Source: Anaerolineaceae bacterium (lineage in GTDB: Bacteria; Chloroflexota; Anaerolineae; Aggregatilineales; Phototrophicaceae). From it: a DNA stretch of 64,000 bases. Position numbers and translations under genes: made by a program. Below the pieces are notes generated by a model, which was not told the DNA's origin, did no database searches, and saw only the letters and a list, made by a program, of their open reading frames with translations. The stretch spans positions 124,001-188,000 of the forward strand of contig PABP01000038.1 of assembly GCA_002699585.1 (NCBI GenBank), given 5' to 3'. This document shows, piece by piece, positions 3,003-38,474 of this stretch; the stretch's first letter is position 1; the number at the start of each line of letters is the position of its first letter.

Positions 3003-5690
3003 TTATGGCGTCTGCTCGTGGTAATGCTCCGTCACCGTCGCAATGTGATGGTAGTCGATATCAAGTTGCCACTGCGTACGCCAGACATGTTCTTCCATAG
3101 CACCTTGTTTCCAGGATTTGATATTTGGGACAATCGCCTTGAAGTGCGGTGCGACACCCTCATCATGATTCGCAGTCGGCGGCATACCAAAGTAGAGATA
3201 GGCATCGCCATAACGATAGGTAATGGCCTGATCGTCACGATTGTTCCATAGGATGAGCAGCGTCGGGTCATGCGTGTCGGCAATGTGATAGATGCCTGCT
3301 TCGTAGAGCACCTCACACAGCGCACGGACATGGGATGGCTGCATCGGCACGAAATAGGGCGCGATTTTGTCTGGGTTGGCGATGAGTGCATCAATGATAT
3401 CCGCCAGTTGATTGCGAACCCCCGTATTCAGACGGAAGTGGCTGAGCATCCACAGCAGTTTTTCGCGCTTGCGGTCGCGGTGCGATAGCAGCGGCGTTTC
3501 GGTCGCTTGTAGCTGTAACGACAGTTCAGCCGTCGCCGGGAGCGAAATACCGGACAGGAGCAGCGTTTCCGTAGCCGCATCATACGAAGATGCCACTTCG
3601 ACCTGTTTACCATCAACCTGTAAGGTGATGTCATTCGCGGCGGTGACACCATGAACGTGCAGATGAATCGACCGCTCGGCGGAAATCAGGCTGATGTCAC
3701 CCTGTGCCGGTTCAATCGACAACATGAGTTGGTCATCGGCCCAACGCTGGGTGATGGTCGTTGTGCAAGCTTGATTGTCAAGATAATCGCGCGATTCGCC
3801 ATCATCTTCATATAGCGTGAAGCTATTATCTGCACCCGCAAAAACGTGTAGATGCAACTCATCAGGGTTATCGATACCACCCCACTTTGATCTAGGACCG
3901 AGGGGAAGAATCGCACCAGCTTTAGCAAATAGAGGGATGTCCTTGAGCGTACCATATAGGGCATGCCAGCGATTACCTTCGTAATGCTCACCCGTAAAGA
4001 CATGATACCAATCGCCTTCTGGTAGCCAGACGACCTGACGCGATAATCTCGTATCAGGGTCAGCGGGTTCTACGTAGGGTGCCGCGATTAGCTCCGTACC
4101 AAACATGTACTGCTGCGGGCAATGATAAGCGGCTTCTTCCTCAGGATAGTCATAGTACATGGGCGAGACGAGTGGCAGGCCATCAGCATAAGCACGCCAA
4201 GCCATCGTATAGATATATGGAATCAGGGCATGACGGAACTGCAATGCATCGCGCAGGACTTCACGGATTTCGGCAGACTCAAATGCCCAGGGGCGCTGAT
4301 CGTAGAAGTAGCCTTTGGTGGTGTGAATACGCAGAATCGGGCTAAGTGCGCCGAACTGGACCCAGCGGGCGAACAATTCAGGATCGCCAGTGCCGCTAGT
4401 ATGGCCGCCAATGTCATGGCTCCACCAGCCATAGGCAACGTTAGACGCTGTCGCCGTCATATAGGTCTGGAAAGCCAGCGTTTCCCAGGTGCGGTAGCTA
4501 TCACCAGAGAAGCCAATCGGATAGCGTTGATGGCCTTCATTGCCCCAGCGAGAGAAGATAAAGGAGCGAGAGTCACTGTTGCGGCCTAAATCCTGGAAGT
4601 GCAAATGATTAATGAGCCACAGCGGGTCGAGGTTTTCAATTTTGCAGGTGAGGCCCTGCTGCCAGTCCAGCCACCAGAAATCGACGCCCATTTCCTCATA
4701 GGGATGGTGCAGCACTTCAAAATAGGCATTCACAAATTCAGGGTCGGTGATGTCGAATTCAACGGGCTGGTCTGAGGCCGGGTCGATGCCCATGCGCTGG
4801 GCCATCTCTCGATATTGGGCTTCATGCGGATGAATGCCCTCGGCTGGATGCAGGTTCAGTGCGGTTCGTAAGCCTTTTTCGTGGAAGAAGTCCATGAGGC
4901 CCTTTGGATCCGGGAAAAGGTCTTCATTCCAGGTATAGCCTGTCCAGCCTGTGCTTTGATTACCCGTTTCGGTAATATGCCAGTCCATGTCCACGATGCA
5001 CACGGATAGGGGTATATCATGTGCCTCAAAGTCGTTGATGAGGGATACCAATTCATCCTGTGTGTAATGCCAATAGCGACTCCACCAATTGCCCAGTATC
5101 CAGCGAGGGACCAGGGGCATATTGCCACTCACAGCACAGTAATCAGCCAGCGCGGATCTATAGTCATGGCCATAGGCGAAGAAGTACCAGTCGATGGCGC
5201 TGCCCTGATGCGCCTCTAACCAGAAATCCTCATTGAAGACAAACGCTTTAGAGTCATCCAGCAGGGACCAACCCGAACGCGAGATCAGACCATCACTAAG
5301 CGGTGCATAGCCATTAACCATGTCCAGCGTGCGCGTCGTGCCTTTGAGATTTTGCGTATCGACATCGCCTGGATGCCATTCCGTATCCGTTGATTTGACC
5401 TGGATGGATAGGCTCTGGGGCGTAAATGGTTGGCCAATTTCGTAGTGTAAAACGAAGGCATCCGTTTCTATCTTCAGGCTGTCAGCATCCTGCTGTACAG
5501 TGAAGGCAGGAACAGGTTGCAGACGATACCACATGGTCTGGCTGGCACGGTCTTCAAATTGACCTTCTGGGTCATATTCCAGTCGAATGAGCCGCTCTGT
5601 CAGAATCGTGAAACGGGCCGTATCGACGCAGATAACCGCATCAGGGTTGGCTATCGGCTCAATATCCAGCTTAAAGTGATCGGGAAGCAT
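3003..5690 (-). CDS. Glycoside hydrolase family 31 protein with extra C-terminal domain
   Basis: The 895-residue protein is a GH31 retaining alpha-glycosidase (alpha-glucosidase/alpha-xylosidase type). Aspartate 342 in FWWLDWQQG is the expected nucleophile and aspartate 397 in GFSGDSYRTW the expected acid/base. An N-terminal beta-sandwich precedes the barrel, and two beta domains follow it up to about residue 730 (the second ending with LYEDDGESRDY and more). Residues about 735-895 form an additional domain I do not recognise. No signal peptide is seen, so it is probably cytoplasmic and acts on imported oligosaccharide. The chosen ATG has a GGGAGGAG Shine-Dalgarno; a longer in-frame extension upstream lacks one. 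The nearby LacI regulator and SBP suggest a shared sugar pathway. Confidence 0.9.
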   Translation of the reverse strand: MLPDHFKLDIEPIANPDAVICVDTARFTILTERLIRLEYDPEGQFEDRASQTMWYRLQPVPAFTVQQDADSLKIETDAFVLHYEIGQPFTPQSLSIQVKSTDTEWHPGDVDTQNLKGTTRTLDMVNGYAPLSDGLISRSGWSLLDDSKAFVFNEDFWLEAHQGSAIDWYFFAYGHDYRSALADYCAVSGNMPLVPRWILGNWWSRYWHYTQDELVSLINDFEAHDIPLSVCIVDMDWHITETGNQSTGWTGYTWNEDLFPDPKGLMDFFHEKGLRTALNLHPAEGIHPHEAQYREMAQRMGIDPASDQPVEFDITDPEFVNAYFEVLHHPYEEMGVDFWWLDWQQGLTCKIENLDPLWLINHLHFQDLGRNSDSRSFIFSRWGNEGHQRYPIGFSGDSYRTWETLAFQTYMTATASNVAYGWWSHDIGGHTSGTGDPELFARWVQFGALSPILRIHTTKGYFYDQRPWAFESAEIREVLRDALQFRHALIPYIYTMAWRAYADGLPLVSPMYYDYPEEEAAYHCPQQYMFGTELIAAPYVEPADPDTRLSRQVVWLPEGDWYHVFTGEHYEGNRWHALYGTLKDIPLFAKAGAILPLGPRSKWGGIDNPDELHLHVFAGADNSFTLYEDDGESRDYLDNQACTTTITQRWADDQLMLSIEPAQGDISLISAERSIHLHVHGVTAANDITLQVDGKQVEVASSYDAATETLLLSGISLPATAELSLQLQATETPLLSHRDRKREKLLWMLSHFRLNTGVRNQLADIIDALIANPDKIAPYFVPMQPSHVRALCEVLYEAGIYHIADTHDPTLLILWNNRDDQAITYRYGDAYLYFGMPPTANHDEGVAPHFKAIVPNIKSWKQGAMEEHVWRTQWQLDIDYHHIATVTEHYHEQTP

Positions 5691-10337: not shown

Positions 10338-10865
10338 TCACCGGATAGAGGCGATGAAGGCATCAATCATTGCAGCGTCCCAAAGGGCCAGCGGTTGGTT
10401 AACCACCAACAAGACCGTGCCATTTTCGCCTTCAAAGACCATATTCAGGCTGCGATACGGTTCGCCATTGCCATTGATGCGATCACTGATGGTGAGATTG
10501 GCGGGCTGGCCGCGTACGATACGCTGTTCATGACTGACCAGAGTGGATGACTCCCAGGCCATGGTCTCTTGATCGTTGTTGGCAACATAGCCCTGCATCA
10601 CCTGTTCGCTCGGCATGATGCCCGTCGGGGCTTGTAGCCATACCAGATGGCCATCACCCTCATTCGACTTATAGGCGGCGATGGTGTAATCGAGAATGTT
10701 GACGGCATAGTCTGGCTCATAGCCCGCTGGCAGATCAAAGTGAGCGATGGAAGCGGCTACGCGATTGACGCGCGCATCATCGAATAACTGTGGCCCCAGA
10801 ACAAAAGCCATTGCGCCACCCAGAATGACCAGAATGGTTGAGCCAATGAGCAAATTCTTTAACAT
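10338..10865 (-). CDS. Hypothetical single-pass membrane protein
   Basis: The 175-residue protein has one N-terminal hydrophobic segment (about residues 4-25) and a soluble extracytoplasmic part. I do not recognise the family. The soluble part mentions no conserved cysteine or histidine cluster, and it is predicted mixed alpha/beta. It is first in the small group that continues with the PNPOx-like and hydrolase genes and follows a LuxR-type regulator gene by about 130 bases, so the regulator may control it. That link is only positional. Confidence 0.6.
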   Translation of the reverse strand: MLKNLLIGSTILVILGGAMAFVLGPQLFDDARVNRVAASIAHFDLPAGYEPDYAVNILDYTIAAYKSNEGDGHLVWLQAPTGIMPSEQVMQGYVANNDQETMAWESSTLVSHEQRIVRGQPANLTISDRINGNGEPYRSLNMVFEGENGTVLLVVNQPLALWDAAMIDAFIASIR

Positions 10866-10993: not shown

Positions 10994-13636
10994 TTAAGCG
11001 GGTAAAATATGTAAGGAACGGGCCTTGGTCACGGCTTCCGTACGATTTTGGGCATCAAGCTTGTTCATGATGTGGTGGATATGACTCTTGACCGTCCCCA
11101 GGCTGATGAACAGACCATCAGCTATATCCTGATTACTGGCCCCCTGGGCGATCAGCGCCAGAACCTCTAGCTCACGGTCCGTGAGGGTATCTGCTGGGTG
11201 CTGAATAGTGTGTGCATCGGCCATTGTATCGAGCAAGGACTGCGCATAATCAGAGTGAATACCCTGAGCGATGGCCGTCTGTAGCAGACGCTGCACAGGC
11301 TGGCCAAAGTCCAGAAAGATACGCACAACGCCCTGAGGTTGGGCCAGTTCAAGTGCCGTTGCTATGGCAGACACAGAAGCCGGGTCACCAGGGCCTGATT
11401 GCTGTTGATGGGCCATTGCCCGGACCAACTCGCCCATCATGACACTACTCATACGGCCAGCGTTCCGGGCATCATCAATCAAGTCGTTGACGATCTCCAG
11501 GGCAGTTGCTGCATCACCGCGTGCCAGATAGATACGCGTCAGGGTCAGGTTTTCCTGGTCACTATAGTAAAAAGACAGTTCACTGTCTTCGTAGGTCTGC
11601 GCCCAGGCATTAGCTGTATCGAGATCACCCATTTGCAAGGCGAGGCTGGCCTCGGCAGCACCGATGTGGATGGCCATCATGGGACTGGCAAAACTCTGGG
11701 AATCACTTTTGGCCTGTTCTATACAGGCGCGAACGTCCTCAACCTGCCCGCGCGCCCACATGACTTCCGCAAGCAAAAGATGCGCCCACCAGAGGGCATC
11801 GGGGATGTTGGCGCGGCGAGCCAGGGCGATTGCTTCCCGGAGCAGCGCTTCGGCTTGGACTATCTGATTGCGCTGATGGTAAACAAAGGCCAGCGGCAGC
11901 ATGACGATACACATAGGGCCAATTTTCGTCGTTTGCAGGGCGAGGATGGCCTCGCAGCGATCCTGCACAGATTGCAAGTCACCCGCTAACAAATCAAGCT
12001 GAGAGAGATAATATTGAGCATCGAGTGTCAAGTAATGGTGATTCATATCCTGTGCGAGTTCAAATGCCGCTTTATAGGCCTGTCGCGCCAGGTTGACATC
12101 GCCAATGAGATAGCGCAAAAAGCCTTCGGTGTTGGCAATACGGACACGATCCAGCCCGGTGACATCCTCGGCTAAATCATTCGCCTGCTCGTTCCACCTG
12201 ATACCCGATTCGACGTCACCCTGATATGCTGCCAGAGTCGCCCGATAGTTGCAGGCGATAGCGTGGAGTATGCGTTTCTCCTTATCCGGCAAATCCGACT
12301 GCTCCACAAGTTTCACGGCACGGTTGAGGAATTCCTCTGAACGTGGGAATTCGCCTATTAGATAGAAGCCGCGCGAGAAGTAGAGACACAGGCGAGGGTG
12401 CTGGTCGAGCGCGTTGTCGGGTATGCGCGGCAGCCAGTTCATGATCGTCGCGATTTCCCCACGAGCAGTCAGGGGTTGCCATGCGTTCTCTTCAATCAAC
12501 TTGGCCGCATAGTCATAATCCTGCGCATTTAGGGCATGGCCAATAGCTTCGACATACCGTTCCTGCCCCACATACCAATCCGCAGCAAGACGGTGCTGCC
12601 TATAGAAATGCTGCGGGCGCTGGATATGCAAATACTGACATAGGAACTGCTCGAACAGGTGATGGTAACGATAAATCGGTTCTGTGTTTGATAAGGGGAT
12701 GACGAATAAGCTCTGTGAAGCAAGCTGATTGAGCAGTAATGGCGCGTTGCTGTCGCCTGTCAGCACGCCGCACACCTGAGGATGCAATCGGCTCAAGACA
12801 CAGGTATCCAGCAAGAATGACTGGGTTTCGTCCGGTAGTTGTTCAAAAATCTCTTGCATCAGGTAATCAAAAATATGGCGCTGCGCCAGCGAATAGCGTG
12901 CAAGCTGATTTTCGAACTGGGTCGGGTCGGGACTTTGTCGGCTCATCATGATTAATGCCAGAGCTGCCGCCCAACCTTCTGTCAGGTCATCAAGCTGTGC
13001 CAGCAGATGCTTGGCAGGCATCCAGCCCAACGTGAGCTGGAACCATGCTGAGATTTCCTCGTCGCTAAAGCGCAGATCGCCCATTCTGACTTCATGGACC
13101 TTACCCTGGGCACGCATCCGGGCCAGTTGCAGCGGCGGATCAGCGCGGGTGCCGATGGCGAGGTGCATATTGGGCGGCATATACTCTGCAAGCAGCGTCA
13201 GCGCTTCATGAACCTGCGGCTCGGTGATGAGGTGATAATCGTCAAGGATGAACACAAAGGGTGTACCGTCTTCCGTAACACGATTGATGAGGGTGCCAAT
13301 CGCGTCCTGAAGGCCCATCTGATCTGGTAACCCATCAGCTGGCTGCCAATCCTGATAGGCAATGCGGCAGGCCGTCACCAGATAAGCCGCAAACCGCGCC
13401 GGATCGTTGTCGCCTTCATCCAGCGCGTACCATGCCACACGCGTATCATTTTGTTGGAGATGATGCGCCCATTCAATCAAGAAAGACGACTTCCCAAAGC
13501 CAGCAGGGGCAGAAACGAGGACGAGTTGCTGATCGGCAGTCAGGCGTGTCTGTAAAGCCAGGCGCTCACGGTACACATGCCGCCCAGGAATGGGTGGTAT
13601 TTCGATTTTTGTACGGAGCAAAAAAGGCATCGGCAC
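10994..13636 (-). CDS. MalT-like (LAL) ATP-dependent LuxR-family regulator
   Basis: This 880-residue protein has the layout of large ATP-binding LuxR regulators. An N-terminal STAND-type NTPase carries Walker A (SAPAGFGKSS, about residues 41-50) and the Walker B-like stretch FVFILDDYH near 140. A long central region of helical TPR-like repeats follows, and the C-terminal LuxR helix-turn-helix (TDRELEVLALIAQGASNQDI to KSHIHHIMNKL) occupies about residues 812-870. MalT is the reference member and senses maltotriose; other members sense unknown signals. It follows the iron-uptake ATPase gene by 96 bases on the same strand and could be part of that transcript or independent. Length is typical of the family. 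Confidence 0.9.
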   Translation of the reverse strand: MPMPFLLRTKIEIPPIPGRHVYRERLALQTRLTADQQLVLVSAPAGFGKSSFLIEWAHHLQQNDTRVAWYALDEGDNDPARFAAYLVTACRIAYQDWQPADGLPDQMGLQDAIGTLINRVTEDGTPFVFILDDYHLITEPQVHEALTLLAEYMPPNMHLAIGTRADPPLQLARMRAQGKVHEVRMGDLRFSDEEISAWFQLTLGWMPAKHLLAQLDDLTEGWAAALALIMMSRQSPDPTQFENQLARYSLAQRHIFDYLMQEIFEQLPDETQSFLLDTCVLSRLHPQVCGVLTGDSNAPLLLNQLASQSLFVIPLSNTEPIYRYHHLFEQFLCQYLHIQRPQHFYRQHRLAADWYVGQERYVEAIGHALNAQDYDYAAKLIEENAWQPLTARGEIATIMNWLPRIPDNALDQHPRLCLYFSRGFYLIGEFPRSEEFLNRAVKLVEQSDLPDKEKRILHAIACNYRATLAAYQGDVESGIRWNEQANDLAEDVTGLDRVRIANTEGFLRYLIGDVNLARQAYKAAFELAQDMNHHYLTLDAQYYLSQLDLLAGDLQSVQDRCEAILALQTTKIGPMCIVMLPLAFVYHQRNQIVQAEALLREAIALARRANIPDALWWAHLLLAEVMWARGQVEDVRACIEQAKSDSQSFASPMMAIHIGAAEASLALQMGDLDTANAWAQTYEDSELSFYYSDQENLTLTRIYLARGDAATALEIVNDLIDDARNAGRMSSVMMGELVRAMAHQQQSGPGDPASVSAIATALELAQPQGVVRIFLDFGQPVQRLLQTAIAQGIHSDYAQSLLDTMADAHTIQHPADTLTDRELEVLALIAQGASNQDIADGLFISLGTVKSHIHHIMNKLDAQNRTEAVTKARSLHILPA

Positions 13637-13732: not shown

Positions 13733-14602
13733 CTAAGATAAGATAGACATCTTTACCCGGCCATTTTGCCCCATATCCTGGCTTGCGTCCGGGTTTTCGG
13801 CTTGGCTTGCCGTTTTGGGTGCGCGGCGTCTACGACCAATGGGAATACACATCGGCGTGTTGGTCACAGGGTCGGTGACGACTTCCGCCTTGAGGCCAAA
13901 TACCTGAAGGATGTTTTCTGGTGTCATGACCTGCTGCGGATCGCCCTGGGCAACGATCTGACCGCCGCGCAAGGCGACAATCGTATCGGCATAACGGGCA
14001 GCCTGGTTGAGGTCGTGCAAGACCATGATAATCGTGCGGCCCTGCTCGTTAAGTTCGTCGAGTAGATCAAGCACATCCATCTGATAAGCCATGTCGAGGT
14101 AAGTGGTTGGCTCATCGAGCAGCAGGACATCGGTTTGCTGGGCCAGGGCCATCGCAATCCAGGCGCGTTGACGCTGGCCACCACTGAGCGTATCCACCGG
14201 ACGATCAGCGAACATGGTCAGGTTGGTCGTTCGCAGGGCCTCGCTGACAATTTCCTCGTCTTCCTGGCTCCACTGCTGGAACCAGCTTTGATGCGGGTAA
14301 CGACCCTGAGCGACCAGTTCATGCACTGTCAGACCTTCCGGCGCGACTGGTGATTGTGGCAGGATTCCCAACTTGCGCGCGAGATCCCTGGCCTTCATCG
14401 AATGGACATTCTGCCCTTCCAAGAGCACTGCCCCATCAAGGGGCTTTAGCAAGCGAGATATGCCCCGCAGTAGCGTGGACTTCCCACAGCCATTGGACCC
14501 GACCAATGCGGTGATGCTGCCCGCCTCAAGGTGCAGGTCCAGTTCATGAACGATGATGGTCTTGTTGTCGTACGTCAGCGAGAGGTTGTTGATGTCAATC
14601 AT
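13733..14602 (-). CDS. Iron/siderophore ABC transporter ATP-binding protein (FepC/FhuC type)
   Basis: The 289-residue protein powers ferric-siderophore, heme or cobalamin uptake with the two FecCD permeases encoded upstream. Walker A is GSNGCGKST (residues 35-43), the signature [15 protein letters not shown] and Walker [14 protein letters not shown] are intact, and an H-loop LHDLN follows; the sequence context is FepC-like. The ATG at MIDIN has AGGAG 5 bases upstream. A tail of about 30 polar residues ([11 protein letters not shown] onward) extends beyond the usual end. It is the last gene of the iron operon, 137 bases after the DUF2218 gene. Confidence 0.92.
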
Positions 14603-14728
14603 GTATGCTCCTGACAAAAGCGCCCACCCTGGCAGTTGAACCAGGGCAAGCACTCTTTTTTACATAGGGTGTTGCATAGGGCTGGCTAGCTGATGCTATT
14701 CGCAGATGCTATCCAGCGAAGGGGCTAC

Positions 14729-14750
14729 ACGAAGCTATATCAGGCTTCGT
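14729..14750. other. Hairpin overlapping the DUF2218 stop codon
   Basis: ACGAAGC (14729-14735) pairs with GCTTCGT (14744-14750) with an 8-base loop. It overlaps the end of the DUF2218 reading frame and precedes the ATPase gene. It may reduce read-through or protect the upstream mRNA end. Confidence 0.35.
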
Positions 14751-15030
14751 CTACCCAATCCACACCGGGCACATCTTCGCCACTAAAGCGCACCAGATGA
14801 TCGCCAACGACATGCTTCACACGTCCGAAATTCTCATCCGTGTCAGCTTGAATGCTGATTACAAGGGTACCGTTGGTCGCCTGCATCTGGCAATCTCCAA
14901 AGCCAAATTGCACCGTACCCTGATTATCATCGTATTGCGCTGTGACCTTGCGGTCAAAGTGATTGCAAAGGGCTTTTAGATAGCGCGATGCTTTTTCCGT
15001 TTCTACGAATGCCTGGGCTTTGTACATCAT
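14740..15030 (-). CDS. DUF2218 domain protein
   Basis: The 96-residue protein matches the DUF2218 pattern: an N-terminal ASRYLKALCNHF helix, a central FGFGDCQMQA strand and the C-terminal VVGDHLVRF..VDW motif. Members of this family are often encoded with siderophore or iron uptake genes, but no biochemical role is established that I know of. Its ATG shares one base with the stop codon of the double SBP gene (TAATG), so translation is probably coupled. A second ATG follows immediately (M26-M27 of a longer frame). Its place inside the iron operon supports a role in iron release, storage or reduction. Confidence 0.82.
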   Translation of the reverse strand: MMYKAQAFVETEKASRYLKALCNHFDRKVTAQYDDNQGTVQFGFGDCQMQATNGTLVISIQADTDENFGRVKHVVGDHLVRFSGEDVPGVDWVDEA

Positions 15031-16877
15031 TATTCCCCGGTTAGGGCTACTTCGACTGTGTCCAGCACCAGCATCGAAGCCAGAGGACCACCGCTGCTCG
15101 TCCATAGGGAACCATCAACGACGACAACGTGGTCGTTCTGGACGACTTCCAAGGCCTGGAACAAGGGTGATTCCAGCGCTTCGTCTAGCGCATCCACAGC
15201 ATCGCCTTCTGCTTGGAGAGTGCCGATAAAGGCCCAGTCAACATCAATAACGCCGAGTACTTCCAAGCTGAGTGGTGCCGAGTGCGCATGGCCGGATTCC
15301 AGTTCCGGGATGTCTTCAGGGGAGGACATGCCCAGGTGGAACAGGACATCGCTAACGAAGGTAATCGGTGCCATGACCTGCGGACCATCAGCGGCCCAGC
15401 GAGCGACAATAAATTCGCTGTTAACGGCATCACCGAGTTCTTCTTGCAAAGCCGTAATACGGGCTTCGTATTCAGCCAGGAAATCATTGGCTTCCGGGAT
15501 CATATTCATGACATCGGCAACGCTCAGGAAGTGGGTTTGCCAGTCACTGCCATAGACATAGGTATTGACTGTCGGTGCGATGGCATTCAACTGCGCCAAC
15601 ACATCCGGGTCAGACAGGCCAGCCGCCAGAATCACGTCCGGCTCCAAGCCCAACAGGATCTCCAGATTGGGGGTGAAGAAGTCACCCGCGACGGTCACAT
15701 CTTCCGGCAGGAGATCAGCCAGATAACGCGGCGGCATGGTTTGGCCACGGCCATTGGTGATACCAATCGGCTCGACTTCCAGTGCCAGCAGCGCATCCAG
15801 GTCGGAATCTGTCACGGTTACGACACGCTCCGGGTTTTCAGGAATGCAGGTATCAGCGAAGGCACGCATGCCCTCTTCGCAGACGACGGCTTCCTCAGCC
15901 GATGCCACACTCTCTTCAGGCGGGAACATTTCTACGAGCTGGGGCAGCGCGGCATCCAGCGCATAGGTCAGGCTCAAGGGCGAGCTAAAACCGAGCGCGT
16001 TTTCTGCTGTTTCGTTGAAGTACAGGACGTGCCCCTCTTGCACGGCAGTCAACTGGCTGAACAAAGGCTGCGATTCCAGAGCTTCCTGGCCGCCTTCGAT
16101 GAACTGCAGGTTGAGGATAGCGATCAAATCCCGGTCGATGAGATCCATACGCTCTTCACTGATATAAGCGTAAAAGGAATCGCCAGCCACTTCCATGAGT
16201 TCTTCTGGCATCTGGAAACCTAAGTCAACGAAGAAACGACCTCGGCTGTCTTCATCGGTGTAGAAACCGTACGTGCCATCTGACCAGAAAGCAACGGCAA
16301 CGGTATGGTCGGCGAACTGCGGATTGCTTTCTTTGGCTTCGGTATACAAGCCTTCGACCTCAGCAACCAGGGCTTCTGCTTCTGCGGATTTGCCAAGTGC
16401 CTGACCGATCAAGAGCGTGGTAGCCTGCCAGGGCATGCCGAAGTCGATGTACTCGTCCGTCTGGGCGATGGTCGGCGCGATCTGTGACAGATTTTCGTAT
16501 TCTTCCTGGGTGATACCGGCTGTCACCGCACTGATGAGGTCGGGTTCCAGTGCCAGGATGGCTTCGTAGTTGAGCGTACCAAAGGTCATGTTGAGGACGA
16601 CCGGGTGCTCGCCTTCAATATAGTCCTCAGCCCAGGGCATGATGGCATCTTCTTCACCATACCAGTAGCGCACAGCTACAGGTTGTTCGCCCAGTGCCAG
16701 CAAGAAGTCCTGTTCGGTGTAGCCAATAGCGACAATGCGCTGAGGAGCCTCAGTGATCGTGGTTGAGCCAAATTTGTGTTCAACGGTAATAGGGAATTCG
16801 TCTTGGGCGGCGATGGGACTGACCATCAGCAGGGCCAGGACGGCGATCATCAGGATAGTGATTGGCGTTTTTCTCAT
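15030..16877 (-). CDS. Tandem double-domain iron-siderophore substrate-binding protein
   Basis: The 615-residue protein is about twice the normal length of a FepB/BtuF-type binding protein and holds two such domains in series. Domain 1 (about 27-318) has PQRIVAIG at 45-52, NYEAILALEPDLI near 103-115 and APTI at 134. Domain 2 (about 345-615) repeats this layout with PERVVTVT at 349-356, LEILLGLEPDVILA near 405-418 and APTV at 434. A short linker has cysteines at 333 and 344 that could form a disulfide. A Sec signal peptide ends near AAQDE with no lipobox. Start: ATG with GGAG 7 bases upstream. Only one transporter is encoded, so both domains may feed the same FecCD pair. Confidence 0.88.
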   Translation of the reverse strand: MRKTPITILMIAVLALLMVSPIAAQDEFPITVEHKFGSTTITEAPQRIVAIGYTEQDFLLALGEQPVAVRYWYGEEDAIMPWAEDYIEGEHPVVLNMTFGTLNYEAILALEPDLISAVTAGITQEEYENLSQIAPTIAQTDEYIDFGMPWQATTLLIGQALGKSAEAEALVAEVEGLYTEAKESNPQFADHTVAVAFWSDGTYGFYTDEDSRGRFFVDLGFQMPEELMEVAGDSFYAYISEERMDLIDRDLIAILNLQFIEGGQEALESQPLFSQLTAVQEGHVLYFNETAENALGFSSPLSLTYALDAALPQLVEMFPPEESVASAEEAVVCEEGMRAFADTCIPENPERVVTVTDSDLDALLALEVEPIGITNGRGQTMPPRYLADLLPEDVTVAGDFFTPNLEILLGLEPDVILAAGLSDPDVLAQLNAIAPTVNTYVYGSDWQTHFLSVADVMNMIPEANDFLAEYEARITALQEELGDAVNSEFIVARWAADGPQVMAPITFVSDVLFHLGMSSPEDIPELESGHAHSAPLSLEVLGVIDVDWAFIGTLQAEGDAVDALDEALESPLFQALEVVQNDHVVVVDGSLWTSSGGPLASMLVLDTVEVALTGE

Positions 16878-16957
16878 GTGGTTACTCCATGAATTAGAAA
16901 TAAAACGGTTGATAGGTTGATACATAGGGATCGAAAAGCCGTCGATAAAGTGGCTCC

Positions 16958-18013
16958 TTATTGCAATGACGCCACAGGTGTGACGTTAAATGTACGGATA
17001 AGTTGGGTCACCCATTGGGTGATGCGACTTTGGGTTAGGTCTGGCTGATGGGTTTCATCAATGCCAAGCCCCATAAACTGGCCTGATTCCAGGCCAAGGG
17101 ATTCACTAAATTCATACCCACTGGCATCGGTGTAACCGACCAGGGTGGCGCCGCGGCGAACGAGTTCATGCCCCAGGATGCCGAGCGCGTCGAGGAAGTT
17201 ATCCGGGTAGTTGTATTGATCGCCAATGCCAAACAGAGCGATTTTGCACCCAGCCAGATTTAGATTTTGGAGTTGGGGGAACGCAATGTCCCAGTCATCT
17301 TGGAGCTGGCCAATGTTCCAGGTAGGTACACCCAGAATAAGGCAGTTGTAAGCCAACAATTCGCTCAGGTCTTTGACTGTCCCAATGTTGATGGGTTCCA
17401 GCGTTTCGCCAGTGGCTTGCTGCCAAGCGCTCTGGATGTCATAAGCGACTTTTTCAGTGACGCCGGTGCTGCTGCCATAGTACAGGCCAACACGGCTTGA
17501 TTCAGACGGTTGGGCTGTTTGGCGGGGGCTATCATCTCGTAATTCAATTGGTGGCTCATTGGTCTGGGCCTTTAGCCATTGTTTGGCTTCGTCCACATCG
17601 GTAAAGATGTTACCGCGCGTCCCGAACATATATCGTGCCCGTGAATCCGCTGTCTCTTGCCACTGCTGCCAGCGACCTTCTTCCGCTTTGGCACTGACGA
17701 CCCAGGCCGCATCCGCCGGGTAAACATTGACATACCCCATGGTCTTGAGGTGGCTCAGGTGGCGATATTCACGACGAAACGCATTGATGAGCCGATTGAT
17801 TTCTTCGTGTTCACGCTCATGTTCTTCACGCTCCTCGTCAGTCAGATGATGATGTTCGTGCGGCTCATTGACGATCAACACGCCAAAACGCGAATCTTGC
17901 TGCAAACGATCGGCCCAGTACTGGCCCAATTGACGGTAATCTTCAGGTGTGTGGTCGCTGCCTGTATAGACGATGAGCATTTGTGGATCAGTTTCATCAA
18001 AATGAAATGCCAT
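16958..18013 (-). CDS. STAS-like/His-rich domain fused to long-chain flavodoxin
   Basis: The 351-residue protein has two parts. Residues about 10-150 resemble a STAS/SpoIIAA-like fold ending in FTDVDEAKQWLKAQ, with an acidic His-rich segment at 49-70 (EPHEHHHLTDE, then EREEHEREHEE). Residues about 175-340 are a flavodoxin: the FMN phosphate loop SSTGVT (181-186), the tryptophan loop PTWNIGQLQDDW (230-241), and GDQYNYPDNFLDALG (264-278). All three are strong matches to long-chain flavodoxins. Flavodoxins replace ferredoxin in low iron and can supply electrons. In an iron-uptake operon it may reduce ferric siderophore in the cytoplasm, with the His-rich part holding metal; that is inference. 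GAGGA precedes the ATG. Confidence 0.88.
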   Translation of the reverse strand: MAFHFDETDPQMLIVYTGSDHTPEDYRQLGQYWADRLQQDSRFGVLIVNEPHEHHHLTDEEREEHEREHEEINRLINAFRREYRHLSHLKTMGYVNVYPADAAWVVSAKAEEGRWQQWQETADSRARYMFGTRGNIFTDVDEAKQWLKAQTNEPPIELRDDSPRQTAQPSESSRVGLYYGSSTGVTEKVAYDIQSAWQQATGETLEPINIGTVKDLSELLAYNCLILGVPTWNIGQLQDDWDIAFPQLQNLNLAGCKIALFGIGDQYNYPDNFLDALGILGHELVRRGATLVGYTDASGYEFSESLGLESGQFMGLGIDETHQPDLTQSRITQWVTQLIRTFNVTPVASLQ

Positions 18014-18055
18014 TTTGCATGTCCTCTTATATCGGGGCCAATGAACGAACACCCG

Positions 18056-19105
18056 TTACTTATTCCGTGTTTGATAGAGCAAATAGGCGAAGTAGGGTGC
18101 GCCGATCATGGCGGCGACGACACCTACGGGCAGTTCCGATGGTGAGATCACCCAGCGACCAATCAGATCCGCCAGCATAAGCAGCACCCCACCCAGCAAA
18201 GCCGCCGTTGGGATCAGCCCTTCATGCGATGGCCCCACCAGGCGACGGGCAATATGCGGTGCAACCAACCCCACAAAGCCAATCGTCCCAGCAACCGCCA
18301 CAGCGACAGCGGCCAAGGCCACACTCACAGCCAACAACAGAACGCGCTGAAGCTCCACCCGCAGGCCAAGCCCCCTGGCGGTGTCATCCCCTAAACCGAG
18401 GGTATTCAGTTGACGGGCCATCAGGATCGAAATCGTCAACAGCACAATTAGCCAAACTACCAGCGTCTGAACATGCTGCCAATTGCTGCCATAGACGCTA
18501 CCTGCTAACCAGACTGTGGCTTCCTGCACGGCGTTGATTTCCCCAAATACGAGCATGAGGTTAGTTAGTGCTGTAGCGACTGCACCCAGGCCAACACCTA
18601 CTAGAATCAGGCGAACGGGGGCACTGCCGCCCTTCCAGGCAACGGCGAAAATAGTCAAAGCCATTAGCAAAGCGCCACCGAATGCCACAAAAGGCAGCCA
18701 TTCAATGGGCACGTCAAACCAGACGATGGTTGCGACTGCGGCCAATGATGCACCCGCAGTCACACCGAGGATACCGGGATCGGCCAGAGGATTGCGGGTA
18801 ATGCCCTGCAAAATCGTGCCGGATACGCTCAGAGCGGAGCCGACCAGGAAAGCGACCAAAATGCGCGGCAAGCGGAATGTGAACACCACCAGTTCATGAC
18901 GTGAGTTACCCGTATCCATGCCGAGGATGGTTTTGAGCACATCCAGCGGTGAAATATCAAAATCACCATAGCTGACGCTGGTCACGAGGATCGCAATGCC
19001 AAGAAGCAGCAATACTCCAAATACGGGCAGCATACGACGATCTTGCTTGAAGGAGAAGCGACCAACGCGGAGTGTGTGCCAGATAGGTTTCGTCGTCTTT
19101 TGCAT
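18056..19105 (-). CDS. FecCD-family iron-siderophore ABC permease (second)
   Basis: The 349-residue protein has about nine to ten hydrophobic segments and the FecCD hallmarks GITRNPLADPGILGV (about 104-118) and GLVAPHIARRLVGPSH (near 270-285). It transports ferric-siderophore, heme or cobalamin across the membrane as a heterodimer with the preceding permease. Its start overlaps the stop of that gene by one base, showing coupling. It is followed by the flavodoxin fusion gene 42 bases on. Confidence 0.93.
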   Translation of the reverse strand: MQKTTKPIWHTLRVGRFSFKQDRRMLPVFGVLLLLGIAILVTSVSYGDFDISPLDVLKTILGMDTGNSRHELVVFTFRLPRILVAFLVGSALSVSGTILQGITRNPLADPGILGVTAGASLAAVATIVWFDVPIEWLPFVAFGGALLMALTIFAVAWKGGSAPVRLILVGVGLGAVATALTNLMLVFGEINAVQEATVWLAGSVYGSNWQHVQTLVVWLIVLLTISILMARQLNTLGLGDDTARGLGLRVELQRVLLLAVSVALAAVAVAVAGTIGFVGLVAPHIARRLVGPSHEGLIPTAALLGGVLLMLADLIGRWVISPSELPVGVVAAMIGAPYFAYLLYQTRNK

Positions 19106-20166
19106 TAGCTTTTCACCCGCCAGCGCGCCAGATACACAAAGAAGGGTGCCCCAATCAGGGCCATCATCACACCAACGGGCAGTTCCAGCGGTCGGATGAT
19201 GATACGTGCCACCAAATCACCGCCTATGACCAGCAACGCGCCAGTCAGGGCGCTGTAGGGCAAAATCCAGCGATAATCAACGCCGACGAGAAAGCGCACC
19301 AGATGCGGCGCAACCAATCCTACGAAGCCAATCGGGCCAGCCAAGGCAACCGCCCCACCCGCCAGACACACGACCATCAACGCGGCCAGAGCCTTAACGA
19401 TAATCGTATTTTGTCCCAGGCCAGCGGCAATGTCATCGCCCAGACTGATAGTCGTAATCTGACGCGCCAGGAGCAGCGCGCCGATCATGCCGACGATCAT
19501 CCAGGGTGCTGTTTGCGTCAACAGCGGAAAGTCACGCCCGGCCAGTGAACCAACCGTCCAGAAGCGAATCTGATCGAGTGTGTCACGGTCGCTAATCAAG
19601 ATAGCGGTGGTGAAAGATGAGGTGAAGCTGGTCATGATGACACCAGCCAACGTCAAACGCAGCGGGGTTGCCCCACTGCGCCCCATAGACCCCAGGCCAT
19701 AAACAACGGCTGCGGCCACAGTTGCGCCAATCATGGCAAAACCGGCATAGGCCGATAGCGGAATATTTCCCAGCACATAGACAGCTACGACGACGGCAAA
19801 GGCAGCCCCGGCATTTACACCAAGGATGCCCGGTGATGCCAGTGGGTTGCGCGTCACACCCTGCATGATAGCCCCTGCAACAGCCAGTGAGGCACCGACT
19901 ATCGCCCCAGCCAGCACCCGCGGGAGGCGCACTGTCTGGATGATGAGATGCTCAAACACGTTTTCATCGTAATTGAACAGCGCATCAAAGACTGTTTGCG
20001 GTGAAATTTCCGCAGCGCCCAACATGATGCCAGCGACTAACATGACCAGCAGCAAGACAACGCCTACGATCAGTCCACCGACCAGCCAGAAGCGTTTGCC
20101 ATAGCGTTTTTTGCCCAGGCTAGGCTGAGGCGGCGTAGCTATATTATTACGACTTCCTATTTCCAT
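19105..20166 (-). CDS. FecCD-family iron-siderophore ABC permease (first)
   Basis: This 353-residue permease begins the iron operon. A cytoplasmic N-terminus of about 25 residues is followed by roughly ten hydrophobic segments. The motifs GVTRNPLASPGILGVNAGA and GLVAPHLVRFLVG are diagnostic for FecCD. It pairs with the next permease (one-base overlap). Upstream is a 546-base divergent intergenic region; no Fur or DtxR consensus box was recognised there, though a TGTAA-GGT-TTACA inverted repeat is present at 20290-20302. Confidence 0.93.
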   Translation of the reverse strand: MEIGSRNNIATPPQPSLGKKRYGKRFWLVGGLIVGVVLLLVMLVAGIMLGAAEISPQTVFDALFNYDENVFEHLIIQTVRLPRVLAGAIVGASLAVAGAIMQGVTRNPLASPGILGVNAGAAFAVVVAVYVLGNIPLSAYAGFAMIGATVAAAVVYGLGSMGRSGATPLRLTLAGVIMTSFTSSFTTAILISDRDTLDQIRFWTVGSLAGRDFPLLTQTAPWMIVGMIGALLLARQITTISLGDDIAAGLGQNTIIVKALAALMVVCLAGGAVALAGPIGFVGLVAPHLVRFLVGVDYRWILPYSALTGALLVIGGDLVARIIIRPLELPVGVMMALIGAPFFVYLARWRVKS

Positions 20167-37467: not shown

Positions 37468-38070
37468 TTATGCGGGGACAAAGCGCAAAACAACCACGAG
37501 TGAATCGTCCGTGCCGCGCTTGAAATTCGTATGAATGTAATCTGCGATCACCTGGGGCGACTGGCGTAGAGGCGCATCCTGCAAAAAACCACTACGAATG
37601 CCGTCGGTCGCCATGACGAGCGTATCGTAAGGATATATGCTCACTTTTGATGGACGGATCGTTGGCAGGCGAAAGCCCACAACGCCACCCCTTGAGAGCA
37701 AGGATTCGCGTTTGAGGGTATCCTGGCTACGAACAACCCCGGCATAGACGTTGCCCACCCCCGCCCATTCGAGTTGGGCATTGGCTGCATCGAATTGGGC
37801 GATGCTCACCGCCGCACCGCGTGTCACCCGTATGGCTCGACTACAATGCTCTAACTGCACCTTCACCGGACGATTCACATCCTGCTGGAAGGCATCGACC
37901 GCAGCCAGGGCGGCTGTTGCCGCCTTTTCACCGTGTCCTAACCCATCAATCACAGCGACAAGGACGCCACGCCGCGTCGCTTGCACCAGAAACCGATCAC
38001 CGGCTTGTTCTGGCGAATTGCCAGGATAAGCGGCCTGAGCGTACGCACACTGATAGCTGAGTTGCGTCAT
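37468..38070 (-). CDS. rsbX: SpoIIE/RsbX-type PP2C phosphatase
   Basis: This 200-residue protein is a single PP2C domain like RsbX: GDRFLVQ near residue 25, DGLGHG with its metal-binding aspartate near 44, and the late MATDGI near 157. RsbX dephosphorylates stressosome proteins to reset it. Start is taken at MTQLS because its ATG overlaps the preceding stop by 4 bases (ATGA). It is the last gene of the module; there is no RsbU or sigma factor next to it, so the output is not visible. The symbol is by analogy. Confidence 0.82.
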   Translation of the reverse strand: MTQLSYQCAYAQAAYPGNSPEQAGDRFLVQATRRGVLVAVIDGLGHGEKAATAALAAVDAFQQDVNRPVKVQLEHCSRAIRVTRGAAVSIAQFDAANAQLEWAGVGNVYAGVVRSQDTLKRESLLSRGGVVGFRLPTIRPSKVSIYPYDTLVMATDGIRSGFLQDAPLRQSPQVIADYIHTNFKRGTDDSLVVVLRFVPA

Positions 38071-38474
38071 AGTTTCCATTTCCGCATCGTAATGCTCGTG
38101 CCCTTATCCATGTCGGACGTGATCTCAAAATCATCCATCAGGCGCTTGGCACCGGGCAACCCCTTACCCAGTCCCTTTCCTGTAGAAAAGCCATCTTGTA
38201 GTACTGCCTCTAAATCAGGGATGCCAGGGCCGTTATCGATAGCCTGTATTTCTATCCCGAGTTGGATGCCCAGGACATCTTGCCGTTCAACCTGTTCAAA
38301 CAGGACTTGACCGTGCCCCGCGTATTCCAAGATATTGCGCGTAACTTCTAACGTGGCGATATGAATTGCCGTACACTCCCCCAGTGGGAAGCCTATCTGC
38401 TGTGCGAGCCGATGCGCAGTGCGGCCTGCGATGACCGCATGAATTTCGTTAAACACACGGATTATTTCAGCCAT
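38067..38474 (-). CDS. rsbT: RsbT-like serine kinase / anti-sigma ATPase, second copy
   Basis: The 135-residue protein is a GHKL ATPase. Motifs are HIATLEVTRNIL (N box), IDNGPGIPD (G1) and GLGKGLPGAKRLMDD (G2), each in order. RsbT-type proteins phosphorylate RsbS and RsbR to release the stressosome signal. The start overlaps the previous gene by 13 bases. A second paralogue directly upstream is unusual and implies distinct roles. Confidence 0.85.
   Translation of the reverse strand: MAEIIRVFNEIHAVIAGRTAHRLAQQIGFPLGECTAIHIATLEVTRNILEYAGHGQVLFEQVERQDVLGIQLGIEIQAIDNGPGIPDLEAVLQDGFSTGKGLGKGLPGAKRLMDDFEITSDMDKGTSITMRKWKL

Follow-up and report, generated by a model that had tools for sequence, protein, structure and literature searches.

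What might be the function of a flavodoxin that carries a second domain of 150 residues in front of it and is encoded in the midst of genes for iron import? The question is raised by a gene on the minus strand of a 64,000-nucleotide stretch of an Anaerolineaceae genome (hereafter, the window), at positions 16958..18013. A preliminary description had proposed that its product is a STAS-like domain with an acidic, His-rich loop fused to a long-chain flavodoxin, and had considered this combination unusual.

Gene structure and the flavodoxin half

The open reading frame of the fusion is genuine: translation from 18013 to 16958 on the minus strand, which the preliminary description does not name, yields 351 amino acids followed by a stop codon, and all strings quoted in the preliminary description (SSTGVT, PTWNIGQLQDDW, GDQYNYPDNF, EPHEHHHLTDE and EREEHEREHEE) are found in the product. 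The mechanically called frame begins upstream, with a GTG at 18052, but the ATG at 18013 is the likelier start, because AGAGGA, a likely ribosome-binding site read from the sequence (18022..18027, minus strand), lies 8 nt upstream of it and because the alignment with the homologues starts at the same position. The protein comprises an N-terminal domain (N-domain; residues 1–150, 17564..18013), a variable linker (residues 151–172, 17498..17563), in which none of the 22 positions is invariant in the seven fusion genes described below and the pLDDT is low at residues 159–172, and a long-chain flavodoxin domain (residues 173–345, 16979..17497), all on the minus strand.

Residues 175–342 exceed the curated cut-off for long-chain flavodoxins (TIGR01752; 169.3 versus 146.75 bits), the closest solved chain by sequence is a Synechococcus elongatus flavodoxin (PDB 8hgq; E = 9.8e-47), and the model of the whole protein, built from four sequences and with a pLDDT of 74.8, matches flavodoxin 1rcf at Z = 23.8. 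The flavodoxin motifs are intact, as initially described, with the FMN phosphate loop SSTGVT present. W232 and Y269, which we take to be the FMN-flanking Trp and Tyr, are invariant in all seven fusion genes and both align with the Synechococcus flavodoxin. As judged from its sequence, this half is an ordinary long-chain flavodoxin, putatively FMN-binding, which shares the FMN-site motifs and the long-chain length with the TIGR01752 proteins of Synechococcus and Anabaena. The long-chain flavodoxins met in our searches are free-standing, whereas this one has a 150-residue domain in front of it and its gene lies within a siderophore cluster. No domain that binds NAD(P)H was matched in a Pfam search of the fusion chain, and a partner reductase would therefore be needed. 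A second long-chain-like flavodoxin is encoded elsewhere in the same genome (locus L016). Among 17 flavodoxin domains placed in a tree (7 from fusions and 10 others), the fusions fall together on one side of a modestly supported branch (80/80), which fits a single origin of the seven, but does not prove it.

Fold and conserved residues of the N-domain

AlphaFold2 modelled the N-domain alone, from an alignment of two sequences, with a pLDDT of 83.2 and a pTM of 0.75. The model runs strand, strand, helix, strand, loop, long helix, strand, helix, helix, strand, helix, and its best VIA-align match after realignment is the SpoIIAA-like protein 2q3l_A (Z = 9.3 over 114 residues, rmsd 3.0), below which STAS domains, that of SLC26A11 among them, are mixed with crotonases at Z of 6–7. 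Foldseek alone returns nothing at E ≤ 0.001, placing crotonases at the top (best E = 5.7e-3, rmsd 8.9) and 2q3l at rank 48. Since 2q3l scores 2 Z units above the crotonases, which reach 7.2 in VIA-align, we take the crotonase likeness as a common arrangement and favour the SpoIIAA-like match as the more probable one on the model, with the crotonase reading as a less likely candidate.

At the sequence level, homology between the N-domain and SpoIIAA-like proteins found no support. PF11964 (SpoIIAA-like) matches one of the seven N-domains with 15.7 bits, against a gathering cut-off of 25 (12.3 bits for the whole protein). In hhalign, the N-domain reached a probability of 1.3 against SpoIIAA-like proteins and 1.6 against those of the same bacterial family, compared with 98.5 for two SpoIIAA-like groups aligned to each other, and hmmsearch with N-domain profiles against the open reading frames of SpoIIAA-like loci gave best E values of 0.52 and 0.11. 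A profile search of PDB sequences returned four ribose-5-phosphate isomerases (E = 0.73–0.92, over 42 residues), judged to be chance matches. In SpoIIAA, the loop that follows strand 3 carries a conserved Ser/Thr, which acts as a phospho-switch; no Ser/Thr column is kept at the loop in the alignment of the seven genes, and hence the switch is not kept. The N-domain resembles SpoIIAA-like/STAS proteins (PF11964, 2q3l) in its predicted strand–helix order and fold, but it falls below the cut-off in Pfam, has no profile–profile match, and carries a long acidic/His loop and a helix between strands 3 and 4. Of the earlier STAS-like assignment, the fold survives as a plausible and fair guess, for which the structure model speaks, whereas membership of the family is unproven, with the sequence tests and the Foldseek ranking of crotonases on the other side.

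The acidic/His-rich loop together with the start of the next helix (residues 50–71, EPHEHHH...HEREHEE; 17801..17866, minus strand) is placed by the model between the strand at residues 43–49 and the helix at residues 59–87. The richest 22 residues of the protein contain 6 His and 17 His, Asp and Glu combined; among 5000 shuffles of the protein, 9 reached 6 His and none reached 17 His, Asp and Glu. Invariant in all seven genes are E50, P51, H52, E70, I76, N77, F79, R80 and R81, that is, EPH, one Glu and INxFRR, and the remainder of the loop differs among the genes in both sequence and length, the loops holding 3–6 His and 7–12 Asp/Glu per gene. H52 is the only invariant His of the loop (H21, outside it, is also invariant), mean conservation across the seven genes is 0.55–0.57 for residues 48–70, compared with 0.55 for residues 88–150 and 0.65 for residues 1–47, and as many invariant residues as in 48–81 occur in 12 of 117 stretches of equal length. 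As read from this alignment, these figures would argue against a special role of the loop. Metal binding by the N-domain, proposed earlier from the His/Glu cluster, is a plausible prediction because of the iron-import context of the gene.

Occurrence and genomic neighbourhood of the fusion

A search with the single N-domain sequence covered 154 genomes of the order and found the domain in seven (G000, G819, G780, G786, G788, G791 and G849), with every match at E = 2e-22 or better. N-domain and flavodoxin are in one frame in six of the seven, the gene of G849 being split across two contig ends. The homologue of UBA6055 (locus L018) is full-length and 55% identical; it occupies the same contig and place as that of G819, so that the two are one count, and G819 belongs to the same family as the window genome. 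In partly overlapping samples, an N-domain profile matched only the window genome among 400 genomes of the phylum, and the single sequence gave four matches at E ≤ 0.01 among 396 genomes of the class, including the window genome; the three further matches were short (E = 0.007–0.009), judged to be chance and dropped. A search of plasmids with the N-domain gave no match. An artefact or a fusion restricted to this genome, either of which would have spoken against the preliminary description, is ruled out by the UBA6055 fusion and by the N-domain matches in another five genomes of this order. The fusion is real, rare but recurrent, with the same domain order found again in the order, and sited in iron-import clusters; the combination is indeed unusual. 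Judged by their listings, no paper in the open-access literature deals with a flavodoxin–STAS/SpoIIAA-like fusion or with a siderophore flavodoxin fusion in Anaerolineae, and none turned up that links Suc_Fer-like (sucrase ferredoxin) proteins to siderophores.

The genomic context, absent from the preliminary description, is the strongest lead. In the window, two FecCD permease genes (19105..20166, PF01032, 323.5 bits; 18056..19105, 335.9 bits), the second directly upstream of the fusion, are followed by the fusion and then by genes for a double periplasmic-binding protein (15030..16880, PF01497, 140.8 bits), a DUF2218 protein (14740..15030, PF09981, 101.3 bits) and an ABC transporter ATPase (13733..14653), all on the minus strand. 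The first half of the double binding protein resembles iron-compound binding proteins, and the top NCBIfam model of the ATPase, FecE, stays below its cut-off (NF008409; 333.0 versus 375 bits). The top models of the four transporter proteins, FhuB, FhuB, FecE and ferric-dicitrate binding protein, all remain below their cut-offs, and one permease scored 238.9 bits with the BtuC (B12) model versus 223.5 with the enterobactin permease model. From these sub-cut-off models we infer that the cluster encoding the fusion probably serves ferric-siderophore import.

All seven fusion copies, which are related genes and not seven independent events, lie in FecCD siderophore-type clusters, which show at least four gene orders, and six of the copies immediately adjoin FecCD. 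In UBA6055, the order is FecCD, FecCD, triple binding protein, DUF2218, fusion, ATPase, binding protein, so that the fusion adjoins the ATPase gene, three genes from FecCD, and an iron-dependent repressor gene lies beside the cluster on the opposite strand. G786 and G788 have the order binding protein, fusion, FecCD, FecCD, ATPase, Suc_Fer-like (the binding-protein matches of loci L098 and L100 come from tblastn alone). In G791 and G780, the fusion immediately precedes FecCD, followed by the contig end, and no binding-protein gene was seen before it; in G849, it is divergent from FecCD-FecCD-ATPase.

Several features of these clusters are recorded separately. Peripla_BP_2 is multiplied within one chain, with two stretches in the window (15030–16880) and three in UBA6055 (L018, 2820–5648). 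Suc_Fer-like proteins (PF06999) end siderophore-type clusters (L100, 11609–12604; L098, 252–1337; L054, 14269–15285), occur in clusters with and without the fusion, and could be further redox partners. In G791 and G788, multicopper oxidase genes lie slightly upstream of the fusion (L099, 5976–6992; L100), with multicopper oxidase and cytochrome c genes at 4035–5048 and 5214–6158 of L100.

DUF2218, which matched in 18 of 298 genomes of the class, occurs in metallophore loci, with a part in regulation or transport suggested, according to the available portion of PMC11317620. Around nine strong DUF2218 matches outside the window genome, FecCD genes are present in six regions; the fusion is absent from the fetched stretches of all nine, several of which end at contig ends. 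G522, from the same family as the window genome, has a DUF2218 region without the fusion. No iron-box-like palindrome (arms of at least 8) is common to the eight upstream regions compared, one of which comes from the fusion-free G522.

Proposed role and alternatives

The reading that we prefer, though only tentatively, is that of a cytosolic ferric-siderophore reductase whose N-domain would hold either the ferric complex or the iron set free from it. A ferric siderophore would be imported by the transporter proteins (binding protein, FecCD permeases and ATPase, recognized by their domains); a cellular reductase would reduce the FMN of the flavodoxin domain, which would hand an electron to Fe(III); and the N-domain would use its EPH/acidic-His loop and the helix segment with INxFRR to hold the ferric complex or to take up the Fe(II) that is released. 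The fusion might in this way stand in for a SIP or FhuF reductase. These two families (SIP, PF04954; FhuF, PF06276) gave no match in the window genome (96% complete), one of the seven carriers, compared with 3 and 2 of 14 genomes, respectively, in control searches, and neither is among the matches of the fusion protein at E ≤ 1. The FecCD clusters around all seven copies, the ferric-siderophore models at the top, the missing SIP and FhuF, the invariant residues, the intact flavodoxin motifs and the repressor gene beside the UBA6055 cluster all favour a reductase. Against it stand the six fetched FecCD clusters without the fusion, a chain without an NAD(P)H-binding domain, the single invariant loop His and the unremarkable conservation of the loop.

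In the available part of PMC8068687, few reductase types are known for freeing siderophore iron inside the cell: iron removal from siderophores is attributed to SIP or FSR proteins, and SIP and FhuF are described as reducing Fe(III)-siderophores in the cytosol. The fusion would resemble the latter two in its proposed reaction, but it contains neither domain, and flavodoxin is a different fold and cofactor carrier. It would likewise resemble IruO and other FNR-type reductases, whose release of iron is described in the accessible sections of PMC10294844 and PMC3200346, in the flavin-dependent electron supply; these are NAD(P)H reductases, whereas such a domain was not found in the fusion chain. 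It is conceivable, if more doubtful, that the fusion represents an additional kind of cytosolic reductase for ferric siderophores, separate from SIP and FhuF and combining a flavodoxin with an iron- or siderophore-holding STAS-like domain, so far in one order. An import-cluster flavodoxin with its own substrate-holding domain would then add one reductase type, and the way in which siderophore iron is freed in a bacterium with no detectable SIP or FhuF could be put to the test.

The main rival, rather unlikely in our estimate but strong, arises from the flavodoxin half itself. Flavodoxins are classic iron-starvation proteins, which substitute for ferredoxin when iron is short, and an ordinary long-chain flavodoxin could replace ferredoxin here, residing in the cluster only for shared regulation, with the N-domain as a docking or stability module; that most of the N-domain is conserved no better than usual would agree with this. 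Yet the genome already has another long-chain-like flavodoxin at L016, and a starvation protein leaves unexplained both why the same N-domain, with invariant EPH and INxFRR, accompanies all seven copies and why these stay in FecCD clusters despite changing gene order.

The fold list invites a further alternative, since STAS domains of known structure, including SLC26A11, appear in it: the N-domain might be a regulatory or membrane-docking module that either tethers the flavodoxin to the ATPase of the importer or acts as an iron sensor, its loop being only a charged surface. The differences of the loop in letters and length would be expected of such a surface, but invariant residues sit in the loop and the following helix, and the phospho-switch position is not kept, which makes this reading improbable. 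Least probable of all is an importer of B12 or heme, with the flavodoxin reducing cobalamin or feeding a heme-opening enzyme. FecCD permeases do serve these substrates, and BtuC and heme-ATPase models also match, BtuC outscoring the enterobactin model for the permease mentioned above; however, DUF2218 is linked to metallophore loci in the available text of PMC11317620, the first half of the binding protein matches iron-compound binders, and a ferric-siderophore model is on top for each of the four transporter proteins.

The window also contains a 175-residue open reading frame without a Pfam match at E ≤ 1 (10338–10865) and, distant from the fusion, a gene for a small SpoIIE-type phosphatase domain protein (37468–38079), a kind of phosphatase that elsewhere works with STAS proteins. 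The gene at 10994–13636, which lies downstream of the ATPase gene and shares its strand, encodes a large regulator that has MalT-like repeats and ends in a DNA-binding part of LuxR type.
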